Virus record (IMG/VR): IMGVR_UViG_3300026182_000002
Location: 1-41,027 of that record
DNA: 41,027 nucleotides
Source: a virus
Reading direction: 5' to 3' (one strand)
Part shown: one piece after another, positions 4,345 through 23,371 of the stretch
Layout: every line of letters begins with the position of its first letter
Position numbering within the stretch: the first letter of the stretch is position 1
Position numbers and translations under genes: made by a program
Notes under the pieces: model-generated
Told to the model about the DNA's origin: nothing
The model's input: only the letters and a program-made list of their open reading frames with translations
Database searches by the model: none

Positions 4345-5732
4345 ACAATAAATTCAGTAAACTTAGTAAATTTGTTTTTGGTTTGAGGTTGCTCCTCATA
4401 TTCGTATTCCTCATCAGCGATCGTGATTGAAGAATCTGGGACATCGACATTATACAACTTCATTTTTGACCTGTCAACACCAACGAGAAATTTCTTATGA
4501 TAATTTAAATCGTTGTATCTGTTTTTCAATTGCTTTACAAGAATGTGACCATCCTTTTCCAAATCCTCTGTAGAGATGAGAGCAAACATAAGGTCAGCAG
4601 TAGCTGGCAAGCCAAAGGACTCACTGGTATCAGTGAGATCGACATCAGAATTACCATACCCAGACCTAGTAGTCTGGGTAGCAGAAACGATTGGAAGATT
4701 GAATTCCACTGCCAACCCTCGTAGTTCTTCAGCGATTGCTTTGACATATGTATAGGAGTTTACAATAGCTCCTTTGTATCTTGCAGAGGCACAGATATTT
4801 AGATAGTCAATAAAAATGATATCTGGTTTAAAAGTCTTCTTCAATGACAACTCATTAAGAAGAGACTTAAAGTGTCCAACGTGTGCAGATGCAGTAGGGT
4901 ATTCTTTGATTATAAACCTACCCATCGTCTTGCGTCCGATGTCTTTGATACGAGATGTGAAAATAGTTTCGGGAAGTGATGCAATATCTCTGATATTTAC
5001 ATTAAGAAGATTGGCGTCAACACGCTCAGCAATCTTTTCCTCAGACATCTCACATGTAATGTAGAGGACATTCTTTCCTTGCTGTAATGCCTGAGCAGCA
5101 CAGTGACACATGAATAGAGACTTACCTACACCTGTGCCTGCCAATGCTACATTGAGAGTCTTATTAGGAAGACCACCTTTTGTAATTAGATTGAATTTCT
5201 CCAAGTCAAAAGGCATCTTATCTTCTTCCAGATGGTAGAAATCATAACGCTCTTCGACGTTTTCGATGTAGTCGTGACCGACGTGCTCGTCGAAAGATAC
5301 CGCCAAGGCTTCTTGGAGTATGCTGGGTATCGCATCCTTTGAAACTTTCTTCTCTCCTCCATCAGCAATCTTGATCGATTCAAGTAAGGCGAGATAGATT
5401 GCTCTGTCTTTACACCACTTCTCCGTCGTGTCAAGTAACCAGTTGTATTCAACGGAGTCATCATGAAGCGACTGAATCGTCTTAACAGCGTTTTGATAGG
5501 TCTCATCATTAAGGTCTTTTCTATTTTGTAAGTTGATAATCAACACTTCTGAAGTGGGCATCAAGTCATAGTTACTTGCAAAATCCCACACCTCTTCGTA
5601 GATTACTTTTTCATGTTGCTCATCAAAGTAATCTGGTTTTACGAAGGGGACAACCTTTCTATAAAATTGCTCATTACACAGAAGGTTGCGTAGAATAGTT
5701 GTTTCAATTCTCTCACTCATCGCCGCTACCAT
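4341..5732 (-). CDS. gp41: Replicative DNA helicase gp41 (DnaB-like)
   Basis: This RecA-fold replicative helicase drives fork unwinding and loads the primase. Walker A is AGTGVGKS near residues 198-205 and Walker B is IIFIDYL about 110 residues later. The N-terminal 150 residues match the DnaB/gp41 helical domain, and the length (463 aa) is close to T4 gp41 (475 aa). Two starts are possible: ATG 5732 ([10 protein letters not shown]) or ATG 5720 (MSERIE). Both overlap the 3' end of uvsX and neither has a strong Shine-Dalgarno. The helicase lies directly downstream of uvsX and gene 43, the usual T4-like replication order. Confidence 0.95.
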
Positions 5733-6741: not shown

Positions 6742-9234
6742 TCAAAAGAAACTCATTAGATTGCCACGCTTTTCGGACTGCCATCCAATAGATTCTAGCA
6801 CATTTCTTAGTGGGTCAAGAAATGACTTCTCAAACTGTAATTGATAATCTACATACTTCTCAAGATTCAATTCCGTGGGCAGTTGCTGGAAAAAAGAAAT
6901 TACATTTTCACCAATAGGGTTTGGTGTCTTGAGATAGATAAACTTAATCTTCTCTCCCTCTTGAATAACAGGATATTTATTTTCTACATTATTTTTCCTG
7001 ACATAGTGATTATAAAGCAACGCACCCCTAACATGAATTGGAGTGCCCTTAGCATAGATGTCTGTGCCATTACGATACTTGTCCAGACCATTAACACCGC
7101 GAGGGAAAGCAATGTTTAAATAATTTTGCTCACGAGTATCTCCTTTGATTTCATCAATGAAACTAATGACATCATCATTCTTTTGGGTAATGATAATCTT
7201 GAATGCTGTGTATAGTTTATCACGGAAGTATGCAGGTGTCGAGGACCTAGCAGTTTCCAATCCCATGATTTTCATCTTAGGCTCAGCATATCGGACTCCT
7301 TCGCTATCCCACACGTTGAGAATGTATCGCTTCTTAGCAGTCCAGATGCCACGCTCAGCGATATTCTCACGCTTCATCTTCATCTTCTGATCGTACGCCG
7401 CCAAGTAATCAGACAATTCCTGATATGAACATTCAATAAAAGGTTCCAGTTTCTCTTGGCATATCTTGTCAAGTATACCCACAATTGCTGTTTTGTCGCC
7501 AGACTTAGCACTAAAAAATTTATTAACAAGAGGTCCGAGATTAAGATAGATTGAGTCAGTGTCTGATGCAATGACGTAATCCTCCTTGTCTGTAGAGAGT
7601 AGTTTATTTAGATATTCATTTACCTTCTTTTCAATCCAACGAATAGACAGTTGTCCAGAAAGTGTGATGGCTTCTGCAATCTCCAACTTATAATAACGGA
7701 AGTGCTCATTGCCAATCGCGCCATAAGCACTGTTAAGTTGAATCTTACGTGCCATCTGAATGTTGTTACATCTAGAAATCTCTTTCCTCAATTCCATAGT
7801 AGGAGTTTTTTCGTATTGCTGCTTTGCAGCAAGCATCTTCTTCTTATAAATCGTGCGGTCCTGATAGATTTTATCCATCAGTTTAGGCAAGAATCCCTGC
7901 TCCTTGGTTGTGTAATGAGTGCCGTTGGCACACATTGTTTCTCCTACAAGGTCAGAAGTGTCATGATCTTTGTCTAACAGCATATCTACATTGACACTAC
8001 TACGACGTGATAGGAGCGTCTCTGGAGACAAGTTGTATTGCATGATAAGGTGAGGGTATAGAGAGTTAAGGTCAAACGATACCACCCAGTCATACATGCC
8101 AGGGACAGGCTCTTTCACATATGCACCAGCATACTGGGTGTCCTTAAAAGATTTCTGCTTAGGGGGAATAGCAATCTTCTGTTTATCAAGATAGATGAAG
8201 ATAATATTATCCCACATACGGACCTGAGAGTATACATCTTCATAGTTTACCTTGGCATCATATGCCATGGTGAATGCCAACTCCAGAAGTTTCATCTTGT
8301 CGTCAAGACGGTCTACCAGACGCACGTCATGGATGTTATATTCAACAAACTTGTGCCAGTCATTTGTATAGAATTCTCTGAAAGTATCAAACTCAGAGTG
8401 GTCAAGTTTCTTCTGCTCCAACTCCACAAATGCGATGTGGTCTAAGCGATATGATTCCTGGTTAGTATAAGTAAACTTCTTATATAACTCAAGATAATCA
8501 AGACAAGAAACACCAGTGATGTCATATGCAATCTGCTTACGACCCTTGATATAAATTTCACGGTCAGAGACCATCTTCCATGGAGACAACATCCTGGTGT
8601 ATTTGTCGCCAATCATACGAGTCATACGGCGACAGATATATGGAATATCGAATAGTTGGACATTCCATCCAGTGATTACATCGGGGATATTTTGTTGCCA
8701 CCATCCCAGAAACGAGTGGAGAAGTTTTATCTCATCGTCACAATGAATGTAATCAACCTGCTTATCTTTATTAGGGAAAGCTTTGCTACCCCACACAGTG
8801 ATACGATTGGTAAAAGAATCATGCAAAGATATAAGAAGAATCTCTTGGTCAGCAGATTCGATGTTAGGAAAACCATTCTCTGCTCCCGTCTCGATATCAA
8901 CCGTGAAGACACGAATGAGAGAGCTATCAAATTTGACTTCATCTCCTGGATACTTGTCGTTAATGTATTGGTATAAGTATCTAGTATTACCATGAATCTC
9001 AAATTCTTCAACGTCAGCATACTGTTGCAAAAACTGACGACAGTCAGAAATTCTTCCTGGCATTACACGACGCAAAGGACGACCGTCGAGACTTTTGTAA
9101 TCTGTTACATCTTTTTTTGAAGAAACAAAAAGGGAGGGTTTGAAGTCCTCCCTGTATTGCACATCCGTGCCATTCTCATGGGCACGGACAAGAATCTTGT
9201 TACCAACTTGCTCAACGTTCTTGTAAAACTTCAT
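6742..9234 (-). CDS. gp43: DNA polymerase gp43 (family B)
   Basis: This replicative polymerase has a proofreading domain. The Exo I motif is FTVDIET around residues 110-116. Polymerase motif A is DLNSLYP, motif B includes KIQLNSAYGA, and motif C is ASDTDSIYL. It is 830 aa against 898 aa in T4. An upstream TTG at 9261 extends the frame, but ATG 9234 (MKFYKNVEQ) has GAAGAGG 5 bases upstream and is the likely start. That ribosome binding site lies in the acidic C-terminal codons of the preceding gene, which overlaps by 23 bases. The C-terminus ends MSFF, consistent with a clamp-binding tail for gp45. Confidence 0.97.
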   Translation of the reverse strand: MKFYKNVEQVGNKILVRAHENGTDVQYREDFKPSLFVSSKKDVTDYKSLDGRPLRRVMPGRISDCRQFLQQYADVEEFEIHGNTRYLYQYINDKYPGDEVKFDSSLIRVFTVDIETGAENGFPNIESADQEILLISLHDSFTNRITVWGSKAFPNKDKQVDYIHCDDEIKLLHSFLGWWQQNIPDVITGWNVQLFDIPYICRRMTRMIGDKYTRMLSPWKMVSDREIYIKGRKQIAYDITGVSCLDYLELYKKFTYTNQESYRLDHIAFVELEQKKLDHSEFDTFREFYTNDWHKFVEYNIHDVRLVDRLDDKMKLLELAFTMAYDAKVNYEDVYSQVRMWDNIIFIYLDKQKIAIPPKQKSFKDTQYAGAYVKEPVPGMYDWVVSFDLNSLYPHLIMQYNLSPETLLSRRSSVNVDMLLDKDHDTSDLVGETMCANGTHYTTKEQGFLPKLMDKIYQDRTIYKKKMLAAKQQYEKTPTMELRKEISRCNNIQMARKIQLNSAYGAIGNEHFRYYKLEIAEAITLSGQLSIRWIEKKVNEYLNKLLSTDKEDYVIASDTDSIYLNLGPLVNKFFSAKSGDKTAIVGILDKICQEKLEPFIECSYQELSDYLAAYDQKMKMKRENIAERGIWTAKKRYILNVWDSEGVRYAEPKMKIMGLETARSSTPAYFRDKLYTAFKIIITQKNDDVISFIDEIKGDTREQNYLNIAFPRGVNGLDKYRNGTDIYAKGTPIHVRGALLYNHYVRKNNVENKYPVIQEGEKIKFIYLKTPNPIGENVISFFQQLPTELNLEKYVDYQLQFEKSFLDPLRNVLESIGWQSEKRGNLMSFF

Positions 9235-9517
9235 CAACCTCTTCGTCAACCTCTTCGTCAATCACGGATGGGACCACATCGATGTATGCTTTTACAACGT
9301 CTGCATTTGGACTAATGATAGTCAGGATGTTGTCAGACGAGAAGAGCACCTCTTCCTGGTCAGTATAGCACGGCCATGGGCGAAGGTCAACCTCGCTCAT
9401 GACTTCGTATGGTTGGATTAGTTTGCAGTTTGGCATACCGTAGTCAGCAACAATCTCTTCGACTTGTGCGACTACATAAGAATCATTCCTCAGTAGCAGC
9501 AGTTTCAGATTCTGCAT
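9212..9517 (-). CDS. Sm/Hfq-like small protein, copy 2
   Basis: The chosen start is ATG 9517 (MQNLKLLLLRNDSYV), giving 101 aa; it is preceded by GAAGAAGG. An upstream ATG at 9541 is less likely. The protein lines up by eye with two others in the window (9483-9890 and 21517-21912): an N-terminal LxxGExVxA-type strand pair (here RNDSYVVAQVEE), a PYEV strand, then a strand ending DNILTII and a short helix (VVKAYIDVV). This is the layout of a small five-stranded Sm-like barrel. The C-terminal tail is a run of Glu, Asp and Val (EEVDEEVDE). The Sm assignment is inference; cyanophage homologues are usually called hypothetical. It sits directly ahead of gene 43. Confidence 0.65.
   Translation of the reverse strand: MQNLKLLLLRNDSYVVAQVEEIVADYGMPNCKLIQPYEVMSEVDLRPWPCYTDQEEVLFSSDNILTIISPNADVVKAYIDVVPSVIDEEVDEEVDEVLQER
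9236..9259 (-). repeat. 12-bp tandem duplication over the gene 43 ribosome binding site
   Basis: Two identical 12-bp units on the plus strand (9236-9247 and 9248-9259) encode EEVD repeats at the end of the Sm-like gene. On the minus strand each unit contains GAAGAGGTTGA. The downstream unit runs into GATGAAG, the gene 43 start; the upstream unit has GACGAAG at the same place. Confidence 0.85.
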
Positions 9518-9890
9518 CACCTTCTTCCTCCTCTTCTTCATAAGTCAATTCTTGAGTTTCAGATTCTACATCACCTTCTTCCTCCTCTTCTTCATAAGTC
9601 AATTCTTGTGCAAACCTTTCCATGTAAACATCAAGGATACCTTGCTCTACATCGCTAACAGAAACTACAGCATCGTATGGGACATTGAAAGTAATGTCAG
9701 GTGTGAAAGGATTCCACTTGCTGAAATTTACAGAATACTCTTCTGTATCTTCTGATTTTGGATTAAGTGTAAGAATATAAGGACACTTAATATTTAAGCA
9801 AATACCTTTGCCAGTTTTCTTGTCAGTCATTTCAGAAGTGCCAGCAATGACACGCTCTCCAGATTTGAATACTAAAATTTTTGGGACCAT
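9483..9890 (-). CDS. Sm/Hfq-like small protein with acidic repeat tail, copy 1
   Basis: This 135-aa protein has a core (residues 1-92) with KSGERVIAG near the N-terminus, CPYIL in the middle, and FNVPYDAVVSVSDVEQG followed by a YMERF helix. This is the same layout as the two other Sm-like candidates. The C-terminal tail consists of two copies of an 18-residue unit (QELTYEEEEEEGDVESET) that differ at one residue. The tail is probably disordered. No RNA-binding activity can be shown from sequence. It is the first gene after a strong early promoter (9913-9941), so it should be expressed early and ahead of the polymerase. Ribosome binding site AAGAGG lies upstream of ATG 9890. Confidence 0.75.
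   Translation of the reverse strand: MVPKILVFKSGERVIAGTSEMTDKKTGKGICLNIKCPYILTLNPKSEDTEEYSVNFSKWNPFTPDITFNVPYDAVVSVSDVEQGILDVYMERFAQELTYEEEEEEGDVESETQELTYEEEEEEGDAESETAATEE
9501..9608 (-). repeat. 54-bp tandem duplication (two copies, one mismatch)
   Basis: Units 9501-9554 and 9555-9608 are identical except at 9514/9568. They encode the duplicated 18-residue acidic unit at the end of the Sm-like protein. On the minus strand each copy contains GAAGAAGGTGATG. In the transcript-downstream copy this opens the next gene (ATGCAG); in the other copy the single mismatch makes it ATGTAG, a start followed at once by a stop. Confidence 0.95.
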
Positions 9891-19871: not shown

Positions 19872-20917
19872 TATACTACCTCACAACTCTCAATATATAG
19901 GGACCGCATGAGAGATTTTAGTTTATCTTTGTTGACTGCTAGGTCAACTTCATCGATATATTCGTTGAGCAAAGTCAATGTATCTTTAACTTCTACATTG
20001 TCATCGTCTTCTAAGAATGTGTCATTTACAAAAGTCTCAATAATTTTTACATCATGTGGTTTCTTACAATAAACATTCTCAACAAACTTTTCAAACTCTT
20101 GATAGTCTTTTTTATCTTCGACTATGACTTTAACAAATGAATGATTACACTTGTCAAGGTCAAACTCTAGATGTGACTCTGTAGTTTCGTTATAGAAAAC
20201 CTTTTGAAAAATCTCGTAAGGATTCTTGACTCTAGTAAGTTTAGTAGTGTCGGGGTCCCAAAGATGAAATCCTCTTTCATCCTTATAGTCATTCCAATAC
20301 AGTTGATAAGGATTACCAAGATATTGAATGTTACCTTTCTTGGACTTGTGGTGAAAGTGACCAGAAAATACTTGCTTAAACTTAGAAAGAATTTTAGAAT
20401 CCATTCCATGCTCCATTCTCATGCCAGGAGTAACTTCAAATCCATTGAGCTCAAGATGTCCCATACAAATTTCAGCATCACTTTCCTCAATCACCTTGAA
20501 TGTTTTTTCTCTGTTTTCAGAATTAATCCAAGGCAATATAAGAATCTTTCGTCCTTCTACTGTAACTTCACGAGCAGTAGAAATAACATTAATGTTATGA
20601 AAACTATCTAGAAGCAAATCGGGAGAATTTACCTCATTAGTATTTTTATAATATACACAATGATTACCAAGAATCATGTGGACTGTAATACCCATGTCCT
20701 CAAGACGCTGAAAGTAATACTGTCGTACACGACTCCATACATTAAAGTCAATACTTTTTCTATTGTCAAATGTATCACCTAGGTCAATGATGTTTTTGAT
20801 TCCTTTCTTTTCCAAGGTAGGAAAGAAAACATCATCATAGAATTTTTTAAAGTATTCCCAAAAAGCAACACTACCTTTTCTTCCGTCTAGGTGTTGGTCA
20901 GTGATAAGAGCAATCAT
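19871..20917 (-). CDS. gp47: Recombination endonuclease subunit gp47 (SbcD/Mre11-like)
   Basis: This metallophosphoesterase nuclease subunit works with gp46. Motif residues are in order: DQHLD near the N-terminus (in place of DxH), GDTFDNR near 47-53, GNHC near 86, and GHFHHKS near 190. It is 348 aa, similar to T4 gp47 (339 aa). Its stop overlaps the DUF3110-like start as TAATG, and its start overlaps the gene 55 stop as ATGA. Confidence 0.96.
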   Translation of the reverse strand: MIALITDQHLDGRKGSVAFWEYFKKFYDDVFFPTLEKKGIKNIIDLGDTFDNRKSIDFNVWSRVRQYYFQRLEDMGITVHMILGNHCVYYKNTNEVNSPDLLLDSFHNINVISTAREVTVEGRKILILPWINSENREKTFKVIEESDAEICMGHLELNGFEVTPGMRMEHGMDSKILSKFKQVFSGHFHHKSKKGNIQYLGNPYQLYWNDYKDERGFHLWDPDTTKLTRVKNPYEIFQKVFYNETTESHLEFDLDKCNHSFVKVIVEDKKDYQEFEKFVENVYCKKPHDVKIIETFVNDTFLEDDDNVEVKDTLTLLNEYIDEVDLAVNKDKLKSLMRSLYIESCEVV

Positions 20918-21405
20918 CGTTTGTATCTAATTTCAAGGGACTCTTTGATACTATTCAAGTCAGAGGAACTACTACTATAACCTGCCATGTCACCTGTATA
21001 ACTATCTGTATGCAAAACTTCATCAAACCCAGACTTCTCTAGAATTTTTGCTTTAATTTCTAACTGTTTCTTTTCTTTAGAGATGCGGCGAAGAAAGGCA
21101 AAGTAAATAATTTGCGTGAAGTATGCAAAAGGATTAGTAGACTTTTCTGGATTAAAATTATGAATGTATTGTAAGCAGTTTTCAATACCATCGCAAATCA
21201 TGTCTTCACGAAACATGTAATTTACAAAGTTTGGTTTATATGATAAGTGTGTTGCAATCTTAAGAAAACACTCTCCAACATAAGGTGGTACACGAGGTTT
21301 CGGTTGCTCGTTTGCTTCTGCTTCAGCAACTTCCTTGCGGTAAACCATTAGAGCGTCTAAGAAGTCTCTGTTGTTTACATAGTTTTCTGTCTTTCTTCTT
21401 GCCAT
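20914..21405 (-). CDS. gp55: Late-transcription sigma factor gp55
   Basis: This 163-aa protein is a small sigma-70-family factor that directs host RNA polymerase to TATAAATA-type late promoters with gp45. NYVNNRDFLDAL at the start, MICDGIENCLQYIHNFNPEK, and NPFAYFTQIIYFAFLRRI follow the T4 gp55 pattern (region 2-like core). The frame is open to a TTG at 21447, but that lies upstream of the predicted transcription start from the promoter at 21429-21457, so ATG 21405 (MARRKTENYV) is used. Confidence 0.94.
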   Translation of the reverse strand: MARRKTENYVNNRDFLDALMVYRKEVAEAEANEQPKPRVPPYVGECFLKIATHLSYKPNFVNYMFREDMICDGIENCLQYIHNFNPEKSTNPFAYFTQIIYFAFLRRISKEKKQLEIKAKILEKSGFDEVLHTDSYTGDMAGYSSSSSDLNSIKESLEIRYKR

Positions 21406-21428: not shown

Positions 21429-21457
21429 ATTGTAACACCTTATTCAAGAAAATGCAA
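21429..21457 (-). promoter_or_regulatory. Early promoter for gene 55 (TTGCAT-N17-TACAAT)
   Basis: Minus-strand -35 TTGCAT (complement of 21452-21457), a 17-base spacer and -10 TACAAT (complement of 21429-21434) stand 23 bases before the gp55 start. Confidence 0.7.
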
Positions 21458-21462
21458 GGGAC

Positions 21463-21491
21463 TTGACAAGACCTTCAAATCTCTGTATAAT
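21463..21491 (+). promoter_or_regulatory. Perfect-consensus sigma-70 promoter on the plus strand
   Basis: TTGACA (21463-21468), exactly 17 bases, then TATAAT (21486-21491). It points away from gene 55, back to back with the gene 55 promoter, and would transcribe the antisense of the Sm-like gene at 21517-21912. No convincing plus-strand gene follows; the first ATG (21497) is followed directly by TAG. Confidence 0.75.
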
Positions 21492-21516
21492 TAGCGATGT
21501 AGCGTTTCAAAGATTA

Positions 21517-21912
21517 TTAGCTTCTATTATATAGATCTTCTAAGTACTTACGTGATTCTTTTACTGTAGACATATATCCTTTTTGTTGTTTAATATCTAC
21601 TCTAGTAGATTCTGCAACATCTCCATTTTCTTTTTGTAAAAAACGTTTATAAAACTTTTGTATTTTTGTATCTAATTCTGTAATTGTAAGGATGTGGTCT
21701 TTTTTAATAATAAACGTTTCATCATAAGTTGCTGCCATCCATGCATTAAAAGTAAATCCTTTCAAATTTGATTTACCTCTCTTCATTTCAATCACATGTA
21801 CCGTGCGGGGATTTTCAATAATCAGTACATCTTCATCGTTGTCGTAAGAAACCTTTGCAACGATTTCTTCGCCAGACATTAATTTTATCGATGCATAGAA
21901 TTCTTCTTCCAT
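21517..21912 (-). CDS. Sm/Hfq-like small protein, copy 3
   Basis: This 131-aa protein begins MEEEFYASIKLMSGEEIVAK, the clearest LxSGExVxA strand pair of the three Sm-like candidates in the window. NPRTVHVI follows, and a final strand KKDHILTITELD leads into a helix (KIQKFYKRFLQ). The copies at 9483-9890 and 9212-9517 have the same order but little identity. T4-like phages carry many small proteins of this kind annotated as hypothetical or Hfq-related; RNA binding is inference. It is one base downstream of uvsW and is followed by a 111-base gap holding two divergent promoters. Confidence 0.65.
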   Translation of the reverse strand: MEEEFYASIKLMSGEEIVAKVSYDNDEDVLIIENPRTVHVIEMKRGKSNLKGFTFNAWMAATYDETFIIKKDHILTITELDTKIQKFYKRFLQKENGDVAESTRVDIKQQKGYMSTVKESRKYLEDLYNRS

Positions 21913-21913
21913 A

Positions 21914-23371
21914 TTATACTTTAATTTTAATTACTTCATAATTAAAGTTTTCTTCTTGGTAGATATTAATTCTTTCCTCAAGATGTTTTAGTGTGTAATT
22001 TTTATATGGTTTTTCGGAAATGTCATCTGCAATGTCATACAACGTTGCCAAACTTTTTCCTTCACCCTTTCGCAGCACTCTACCAATTGACTGCAAGTTT
22101 CTTACTCTTGATTTGGACGGTGATGCAAAAACGACGTTGTGTAATTTTTTAATGTTGATACCTGTGCTGAATGTGCCATAGGAAGCAATGATTACAGCAT
22201 CTTTTTCACGCTCAGTAATACGTCTGATCTCCTCACGCTCTTCAGTATCTACTCCACCATAAACGAAGAAAACCTTTCTGGTTTTACCTATGTTACTATT
22301 TATGCTTTCATATAAAGGCATACCATGTCTTTCAACGTAGTTGAATAATACTAGAGTGTTACCATTCAAGTCTGTGACTAGGTTTTTAATTAGATTATTT
22401 CTTTTCTTATGCTCCACAAGATAATCAATTTCATCTTGGTAGGTAAAGAATGTCTGAGGTTCGTGCTCCAACAATAAAATTTTAATTCTAAACTCTGCCA
22501 AGTGACCTTCTTTAATAAGTCTGTCAGTCTTAGTAACTTGAGCACAAGGACCAAACAATCCTTCTAGCACCCACTTATGTGTAGCAGACCCATCAAGTGT
22601 GCCTGTAAAACCAAAGCGATACTTTGCCTGATGTAATTTTGTCATGATACCAGTCAGTGACTTAGACTTAAACTGGTGCGCCTCATCGCCAATGACACAT
22701 TCAAAGTCATCAAAGTATTTTTTAGGAAACTTGTATATAGATTGCCAAGTTGAGATGACTACATTTTTATCAGTATTCTTATCCTTGCCACCATATACTT
22801 TGTGACAATACTCTTCTACATCCCATCCATAGTCAGCAAAGTCAGAATACATCTGCTCCACCAAAGATGTTGTGGGGACAATAATAAGAATACGTTTCTG
22901 TAGACCAGTATAATAACGCACCAAAGAATAAATCATCAGAGACTTTCCAGATGCTGTAGGAGACAGCAAAAGTTTACGGTGATTTTTTAATGCCTCGTAA
23001 ACTGCCATGTATTGATAGTCTCTTGGTTTGTGCTTAACACAAATTTTATTCATAAAATATTTCACACCCTCAAGAGAGACGAGTGGGTCTTTATCATCAA
23101 CGTGACCGTAATAATCATTGCTTTCAAAAGACAAATCATAATTTTTAAACGATGCCCATTCTCTAAGATGGTCTGCTAAACCGCAATACAATTCACCCGT
23201 GCCAGGAGAATACAAACGAATTTTACCATCCCACATTTTGTTGCGATAGAGTGGCATAAATTTTGCATTAGGCACATCGAAGCTAAAGTAGTCAGATAAC
23301 TCCATGTGGATACCAGGATCCGCATTGATAGTCATAAAGACTTCATTTTTTTTCTTAATTAAAATAGACAT
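21914..23371 (-). CDS. uvsW: UvsW RNA-DNA / DNA helicase
   Basis: This 485-aa superfamily 2 helicase unwinds R-loops and branched DNA and shifts T4 from origin to recombination replication. Motif I is SPTASGKS, motif II is GDEAH, motif III is FGFTGTL, and motif VI is QSIGRVLRKG. The first 90 residues match the small N-terminal DNA-binding domain of UvsW. It lies one base after uvsY's stop and shares the operon of recombination mediators. Confidence 0.96.
   Translation of the reverse strand: MSILIKKKNEVFMTINADPGIHMELSDYFSFDVPNAKFMPLYRNKMWDGKIRLYSPGTGELYCGLADHLREWASFKNYDLSFESNDYYGHVDDKDPLVSLEGVKYFMNKICVKHKPRDYQYMAVYEALKNHRKLLLSPTASGKSLMIYSLVRYYTGLQKRILIIVPTTSLVEQMYSDFADYGWDVEEYCHKVYGGKDKNTDKNVVISTWQSIYKFPKKYFDDFECVIGDEAHQFKSKSLTGIMTKLHQAKYRFGFTGTLDGSATHKWVLEGLFGPCAQVTKTDRLIKEGHLAEFRIKILLLEHEPQTFFTYQDEIDYLVEHKKRNNLIKNLVTDLNGNTLVLFNYVERHGMPLYESINSNIGKTRKVFFVYGGVDTEEREEIRRITEREKDAVIIASYGTFSTGINIKKLHNVVFASPSKSRVRNLQSIGRVLRKGEGKSLATLYDIADDISEKPYKNYTLKHLEERINIYQEENFNYEVIKIKV
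21918..21948. repeat. AT-rich inverted repeat at the uvsW/Sm-like junction
   Basis: ACTTTAATT (21918-21926) and AATTAAAGT (21940-21948) are a perfect 9-bp inverted repeat with a 13-base loop. On the plus strand it is followed by TTTCTTCTT, so it could end a plus-strand transcript from the promoter at 21463-21491. The stem is weak and lies within coding sequence. Confidence 0.35.

Follow-up and report, generated by a model that had tools for sequence, protein, structure and literature searches.

A sigma70 promoter on the strand opposite to the surrounding genes, followed at once by an inverted repeat over its predicted start site, lies upstream of the late sigma factor gene 55 of T4-like marine phages. 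The window analysed here, a viral contig of 41,027 bases, carries uvsY, uvsW, an Sm-like gene and genes 55, 47 and 46 of the T4 type, all encoded on the minus strand around the site. Since promoter and start-site motif are kept in 138 of 138 distinct sequences from related marine phages, their conservation suggests an unrecognised control switch and not a chance match. The reading we favour, at a little under even odds (about 45%), is an operator-controlled divergent promoter: early in infection it would rival the promoter of gene 55 and send transcription antisense through the Sm-like gene and uvsW, and a repressor would later close it. The sequence supports promoter and putative operator well, and from them we infer the function.

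A Conserved Rightward Promoter

As the first-pass annotation had read it, an exact TTGACA-N17-TATAAT promoter faces right at 21463-21491 (+), with 12 of 12 hexamer positions matching. Its −35 hexamer, TTGACA, occupies 21463-21468 and its −10 hexamer, TATAAT, 21486-21491; both are exact consensus, both are kept across loci, and the predicted start site lies at about 21499. Under a first-order Markov model, 0.016 perfect sites are expected in the whole window on both strands, and for a single strand of the 111-base gap between the genes the figure is 2e-5. The window holds one further perfect TTGACA-N17-TATAAT and no third, at 4449-4477 (−) inside gene 41, where the coding of a 10-residue peptide of that gene explains it; a perfect consensus alone is therefore not proof of a promoter. 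Sequences similar to this second site occur in other cyanophage genomes. For the rightward promoter, a chance match is ruled out by the low expectation together with the conservation in 138 of 138 loci, and coding constraint by the intergenic position of the site.

The comparison was built from 160 related viral loci, found with the Sm-like protein (31-100% identity) and gp55 as queries, to which 12 named cyanophages were added; 138 distinct upstream sequences were compared. The promoter of each locus is the best of a 190-base scan, and the evidence rests on position-by-position conservation. An antisense-strand promoter with 10-12 of 12 matches stands at the same place in every one of the 138 cyanophage-type loci, and its spacer is 17 in 136 of them. 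The −35 is TTGACA in at least 131 loci, with positions 1, 2, 5 and 6 invariant; in the −10, T1, A2 and T6 never change. These hexamers follow sigma70 preferences position by position, and the TTGACA-like −35 (TTGCCA in phage ACG-2014f), the TANNNT −10 and a spacer of 16-18 are those of a group 1 sigma70 promoter. Disruption of the hexamers in all close relatives, the outcome named beforehand as speaking against the promoter, was looked for, and instead they are kept in every relative.

In the 12 complete cyanophage genomes, TTGACA-N17-TANNNT sites fall mostly on one strand (5 to 20 versus 0 to 3), and in at least four of them (Syn10, S-T4, S-PRM1 and S-SM1) the sole antisense site of this form is the rightward promoter. 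The arrangement extends to Pelagibacter phage HTVC008M, which has the same synteny and an antisense promoter before gene 55 with 12 of 12 matches and spacer 17, and to Sinorhizobium phage phiM12, with 12 of 12 and spacer 16. In Pseudomonas phage pf16, whose gene 55 follows an RNase H gene, no such promoter was found. Only the stretch from about −40 to +15 of the rightward promoter is conserved, and beyond it the signal falls to background level. Taken together, the alignments strongly support a rightward promoter that is real and under selection, and by their pattern this purifying selection is strong. Published cyanophage start-site tables may already list it.

The Gene 55 Promoter and the Genes Opposite

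Gene 55 (20914-21405, −; PHROG 234, E 2.3e-67) has a predicted promoter of its own, and the earlier description of it is borne out: TTGCAT at 21452-21457 (−), a spacer of 17, and TACAAT at 21429-21434 (−) with TG before it, its −35 lying 5 bases from the rightward −35. The same pair is the best leftward one in locus L003. Across the comparison, the leftward −35 falls within −1 to +13 of the rightward one in 126 of 138 loci, so that the two are adjacent or overlapping. A single −35 common to both promoters (offset −1) is true in only 41 loci and was rejected as the rule.

The first gene opposite a rightward transcript is the Sm-like gene (21517-21912, −; PHROG 471), whose identity holds up in a PF16243 match of 45.8 bits (cut-off 29.4). 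Next comes the uvsW helicase gene (21914-23371, −), an open reading frame at whose place relatives carry a uvsW or DNA helicase annotation. By geometry, here as in the annotated relatives, the predicted rightward product is antisense to the Sm-like gene and then to uvsW, as had been claimed. In public records of relatives the Sm-like gene carries the name "methylamine utilization", which looks like a propagated misannotation because its Pfam match is Sm_like. Two small genes elsewhere in the window, at 9212-9541 and 9483-9890 (both −), give weak to good matches to DUF6561 and also match PHROGs shared with the Sm-like protein; the phage thus appears to carry three related Sm-like proteins.

An Inverted Repeat over the Predicted Start Site

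Directly after the −10 begins a block, TAGCGATGTAGCGTTTCAAAG (21492-21512, +), that the first-pass annotation had not noticed, nor its return at other promoters. It is conserved to about +15, where the information drops to background, and is proposed here as an operator. It tends to take the form of an inverted repeat with variable arms around a TG centre at the predicted +1: AACTC-TGTCA-GGGTT, AACCT-TGTAG-AGGTT, GCTCT-GTC-AGAGC, CTGG-CTTGT-CCAG, AGGCA-TG-TGCCT and CAGGA-ATG-TCCTG are examples. Several clades, the window's own among them, have it in an imperfect form. With one sequence per distinct left arm (n=29), own pairing of the arms reaches 3.97 of 5, above the highest value, 3.52, among 2000 re-pairings, a contrast from which relatedness is not fully removed. 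The arms thus co-vary, and the repeat sits at a constant distance from the rightward −10, unlike its spacing to the gene 55 promoter, which changes between loci; such a co-varying repeat at a fixed promoter position, imperfect in some clades, is the form expected of an operator.

The repeat spans about −6 to +9 of the rightward promoter, which is where a repressor would act. An RNA hairpin at the 5′ end of the transcript is unlikely, as the left arm lies upstream of the expected start site; because a transcript begun at the usual distance would exclude that arm, the repeat is read as a DNA operator.

The divergent PR/PRM promoters of lambda form a well-known phage switch and offer a useful comparison. 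Both systems have opposed promoters that adjoin or overlap, a repressor-type repeat over one start, and arms that change between phages. Unlike the lambda switch, the gene 55 site belongs to T4-like lytic phages, its repressor is putative, and one of its promoters has no conserved product.

Recurrence at Other Promoters

Nine complete or nearly complete genomes were searched, each with its own repeat. Seven of them carry it again, at the identical offset, immediately behind between one and three further sigma70 promoters: S-SM1 (14275 and 49015), S-ShM2 (53021 and 163219), S-PRM1 (63376, 91530 and, more weakly, 141254), S-RIM8 (41953), S-PM2 (162760), Syn10 (97280) and S-T4 (15159). All copies with at most two mismatches in the genomes of S-SM1, S-ShM2, S-PRM1 and S-PM2 sit behind such promoters; shuffled repeats never do. 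One sequence thus marks several promoters of a genome, as an operator of a small regulon would, and because the genome's own version recurs in this way in seven of nine, the repeat looks like the operator of a phage-encoded DNA-binding protein. The sense promoters that bear it lead small genes of unassigned function, a SegE-like GIY-YIG gene and a CP12/cpeT pair. Published start-site work may already treat the repeat as an established element of early promoters.

P-SSM2 and P-HM1 gave no further copy behind a promoter, and HTVC008M none behind a promoter of matching type. The repeat of the window's clade has no second copy in the 41-kb fragment or the clade's contigs, and a scan of viral contigs with it gave further matches, none with a −35. 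S-T4 also carries three further near-copies of its repeat, CTGGATTGTCCA(T/A)GA, at 7279 (+), 118546 (−) and 178848 (+), with no sigma70 promoter ahead of them.

Within cyanophage genomes the spacers and flanks differ among copies, which are therefore not recent duplications. The exception is phiM12, in which a near-identical whole promoter-plus-repeat cassette stands before nrdJ, on the strand opposite to its neighbours (cassette sites 156273-156291 (−) and 22191-22209 (+)). This calls to mind the PeSL (promoter early stem-loop) of T4-type phages, an early promoter joined to a terminator stem-loop. In both, an intergenic promoter and an inverted repeat appear at several places in a genome, and the second phiM12 cassette adds to the likeness; here, however, the repeat follows the −10 and straddles the start, and the cyanophage sites share the repeat only, not the cassette. 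With the repeat over the start site instead of before the −35, and no T-run after it, the site falls outside the PeSL class so defined.

Different repeats are carried by S-PM2, S-T4 and S-PRM1, all from host strain WH7803, and this makes it probable that the phage itself encodes the factor recognising the repeat. One lead, and only a lead, to a candidate repressor is an AbrB/MazE-like small protein (phrog_661, T4-GC 390). In S-SM1 it is encoded at 49681-49848, about 650 bases downstream of a repeat-bearing promoter, and in S-ShM2, S-RIM8 and Syn10 it belongs to the same gene cluster, so that four genomes have it near one such promoter. At E ≤ 0.1 it occurs in 10 of 12 genomes, P-HM1 and Bellamy being the two without it, on a match below the Pfam cut-off.

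The Rightward Transcript and Alternative Readings

The first-pass annotation had envisaged a discrete RNA of about 450 nt, ended by an inverted repeat at 21918-21957 (+). The hairpin there exists, whereas its role as a transcript terminator is unsupported: it is weak (−5.5 kcal/mol, z −1.85), its stem contains A-T pairs and no G-C pair, and its complete preservation is limited to some near relatives. A hairpin at 22029-22048 within uvsW was rejected as a terminator, since it recurs weakly against synonymous shuffles (mean z −0.5). No conserved intrinsic terminator was found downstream of the rightward promoter in cyanophages, and a search of Rfam for a known RNA family gave nothing above noise. 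With conservation ending near +15, and with neither a conserved terminator nor an RNA family nor a conserved reading frame found downstream in cyanophages, a discrete 450-nt regulatory RNA is not upheld.

These results bear directly on a plain cis-antisense RNA, a defined early transcript that would pair with the Sm-like (and uvsW) message and repress it with no competition at gene 55. Orientation and position of the promoter fit such a role, and the promoter is conserved where the transcribed sequence is not, which would suffice for an RNA whose complementarity is given by construction. There is a precedent in cyanophage S-PM2, where CfrI, an antisense RNA of about 225 nt, was observed opposite psbA and a homing-endonuclease gene (PMC2984593, PMC5931967). 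CfrI resembles the present case as antisense transcription in a T4-like cyanophage, predicted at gene 55 from the promoter; it differs in belonging to another locus of one phage, whereas the gene 55 site is known family-wide from a promoter and a putative operator. The searches for a conserved terminator, RNA structure and RNA family were all negative, however, and a cis-antisense RNA by itself leaves the start-site repeat and its recurrence at sense promoters unexplained. It is an unlikely, though credible, account of the site.

The nearness of uvsW invites a second alternative, an R-loop replication origin in which the transcript, hybridised to A+T-rich DNA, primes replication as at T4 oriF, with the repeat as its shut-off. 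T4 oriF consists of a promoter and an A+T-rich unwinding element of replaceable sequence (PMC3016281). Like oriF and ori(uvsY), the gene 55 locus has a promoter whose transcript need not code for anything, with uvsW and uvsY nearby, and over the first 120 downstream bases the duplex is weaker than in 77% (median) of local windows. That weakness is mild, though, as is the A+T-richness of the locus; no GC-skew shift was present at it in nine genomes, the T4 gene order differs, and ordinary sense promoters bear the same repeat. We regard an origin as quite improbable.

Since the repeat also lies upstream of the gene 55 −35, at around −68 to −82 by arithmetic from the promoter offsets, a protein bound there could conceivably stimulate the leftward promoter, the rightward hexamers being just part of the shared region. 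Such an activator site is very unlikely: the repeat is fixed to the rightward −10 while the gene 55 offsets vary (mostly −1 and 8 to 13), the rightward hexamers match sigma70 preferences throughout, and other copies sit at the start sites of sense promoters. Least probable is a promoter for an unannotated small protein, as may hold in phiM12, where a 50-residue reading frame with a good ribosome-binding site (SmphiM12_050) is annotated after the gene 55 cassette; no conserved plus-strand reading frame was found to begin in the first 150 bases in cyanophages (median about 23 codons in 97 representatives), and in the window a TAG comes after the first ATG, in agreement with the earlier reading.

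A Proposed Switch at Gene 55

An operator-controlled divergent promoter is suggested because the repeat covers the start site and the gene 55 promoter adjoins it. Host RNA polymerase would use the rightward promoter early in infection, before phage factors build up. A point on the other side is that its timing may be middle instead of early: host-like promoters reportedly drive the middle genes of phage Syn9. Polymerase engaged at the rightward promoter would exclude polymerase from the gene 55 promoter, which adjoins or overlaps it, or compete with it there. The antisense transcript would dampen the Sm-like and uvsW messages. A putative dimeric DNA-binding protein encoded by the phage would then bind the repeat and shut the rightward promoter, releasing gene 55, and with it the late sigma factor, as well as uvsW. 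What is selected would be the act of transcription and the occupancy of the promoter and not a structured RNA. Transcription, competition, antisense repression, timing and the repressor are what we infer from this arrangement of elements. T4 may offer a reason to keep uvsW off early: there the expression of UvsW depends on a late promoter, and the protein unwinds R-loops at origins (PMC3016281).

Implications for T4-like Phages

We tentatively propose, as a possibility held with less than even confidence, that an undescribed switch at gene 55 is common to T4-superfamily phages whose hosts are cyanobacteria, SAR11 and rhizobia. In cyanophages it would comprise a phage-encoded repressor, a fast-changing operator and a small set of sigma70 promoters. 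One of these promoters, antisense in direction, would keep both the late sigma factor and UvsW in check until the switch to late transcription. Were this true, selection would act on the firing of an antisense promoter and not on the sequence of its RNA. Cyanophages are without the MotA and AsiA of T4, and the control of their early-to-late switch is still unclear (PMC2984593). A family-wide promoter next to the gene for late sigma, whose putative operator recurs at a handful of other promoters, would be a concrete place to seek the missing phage regulator.
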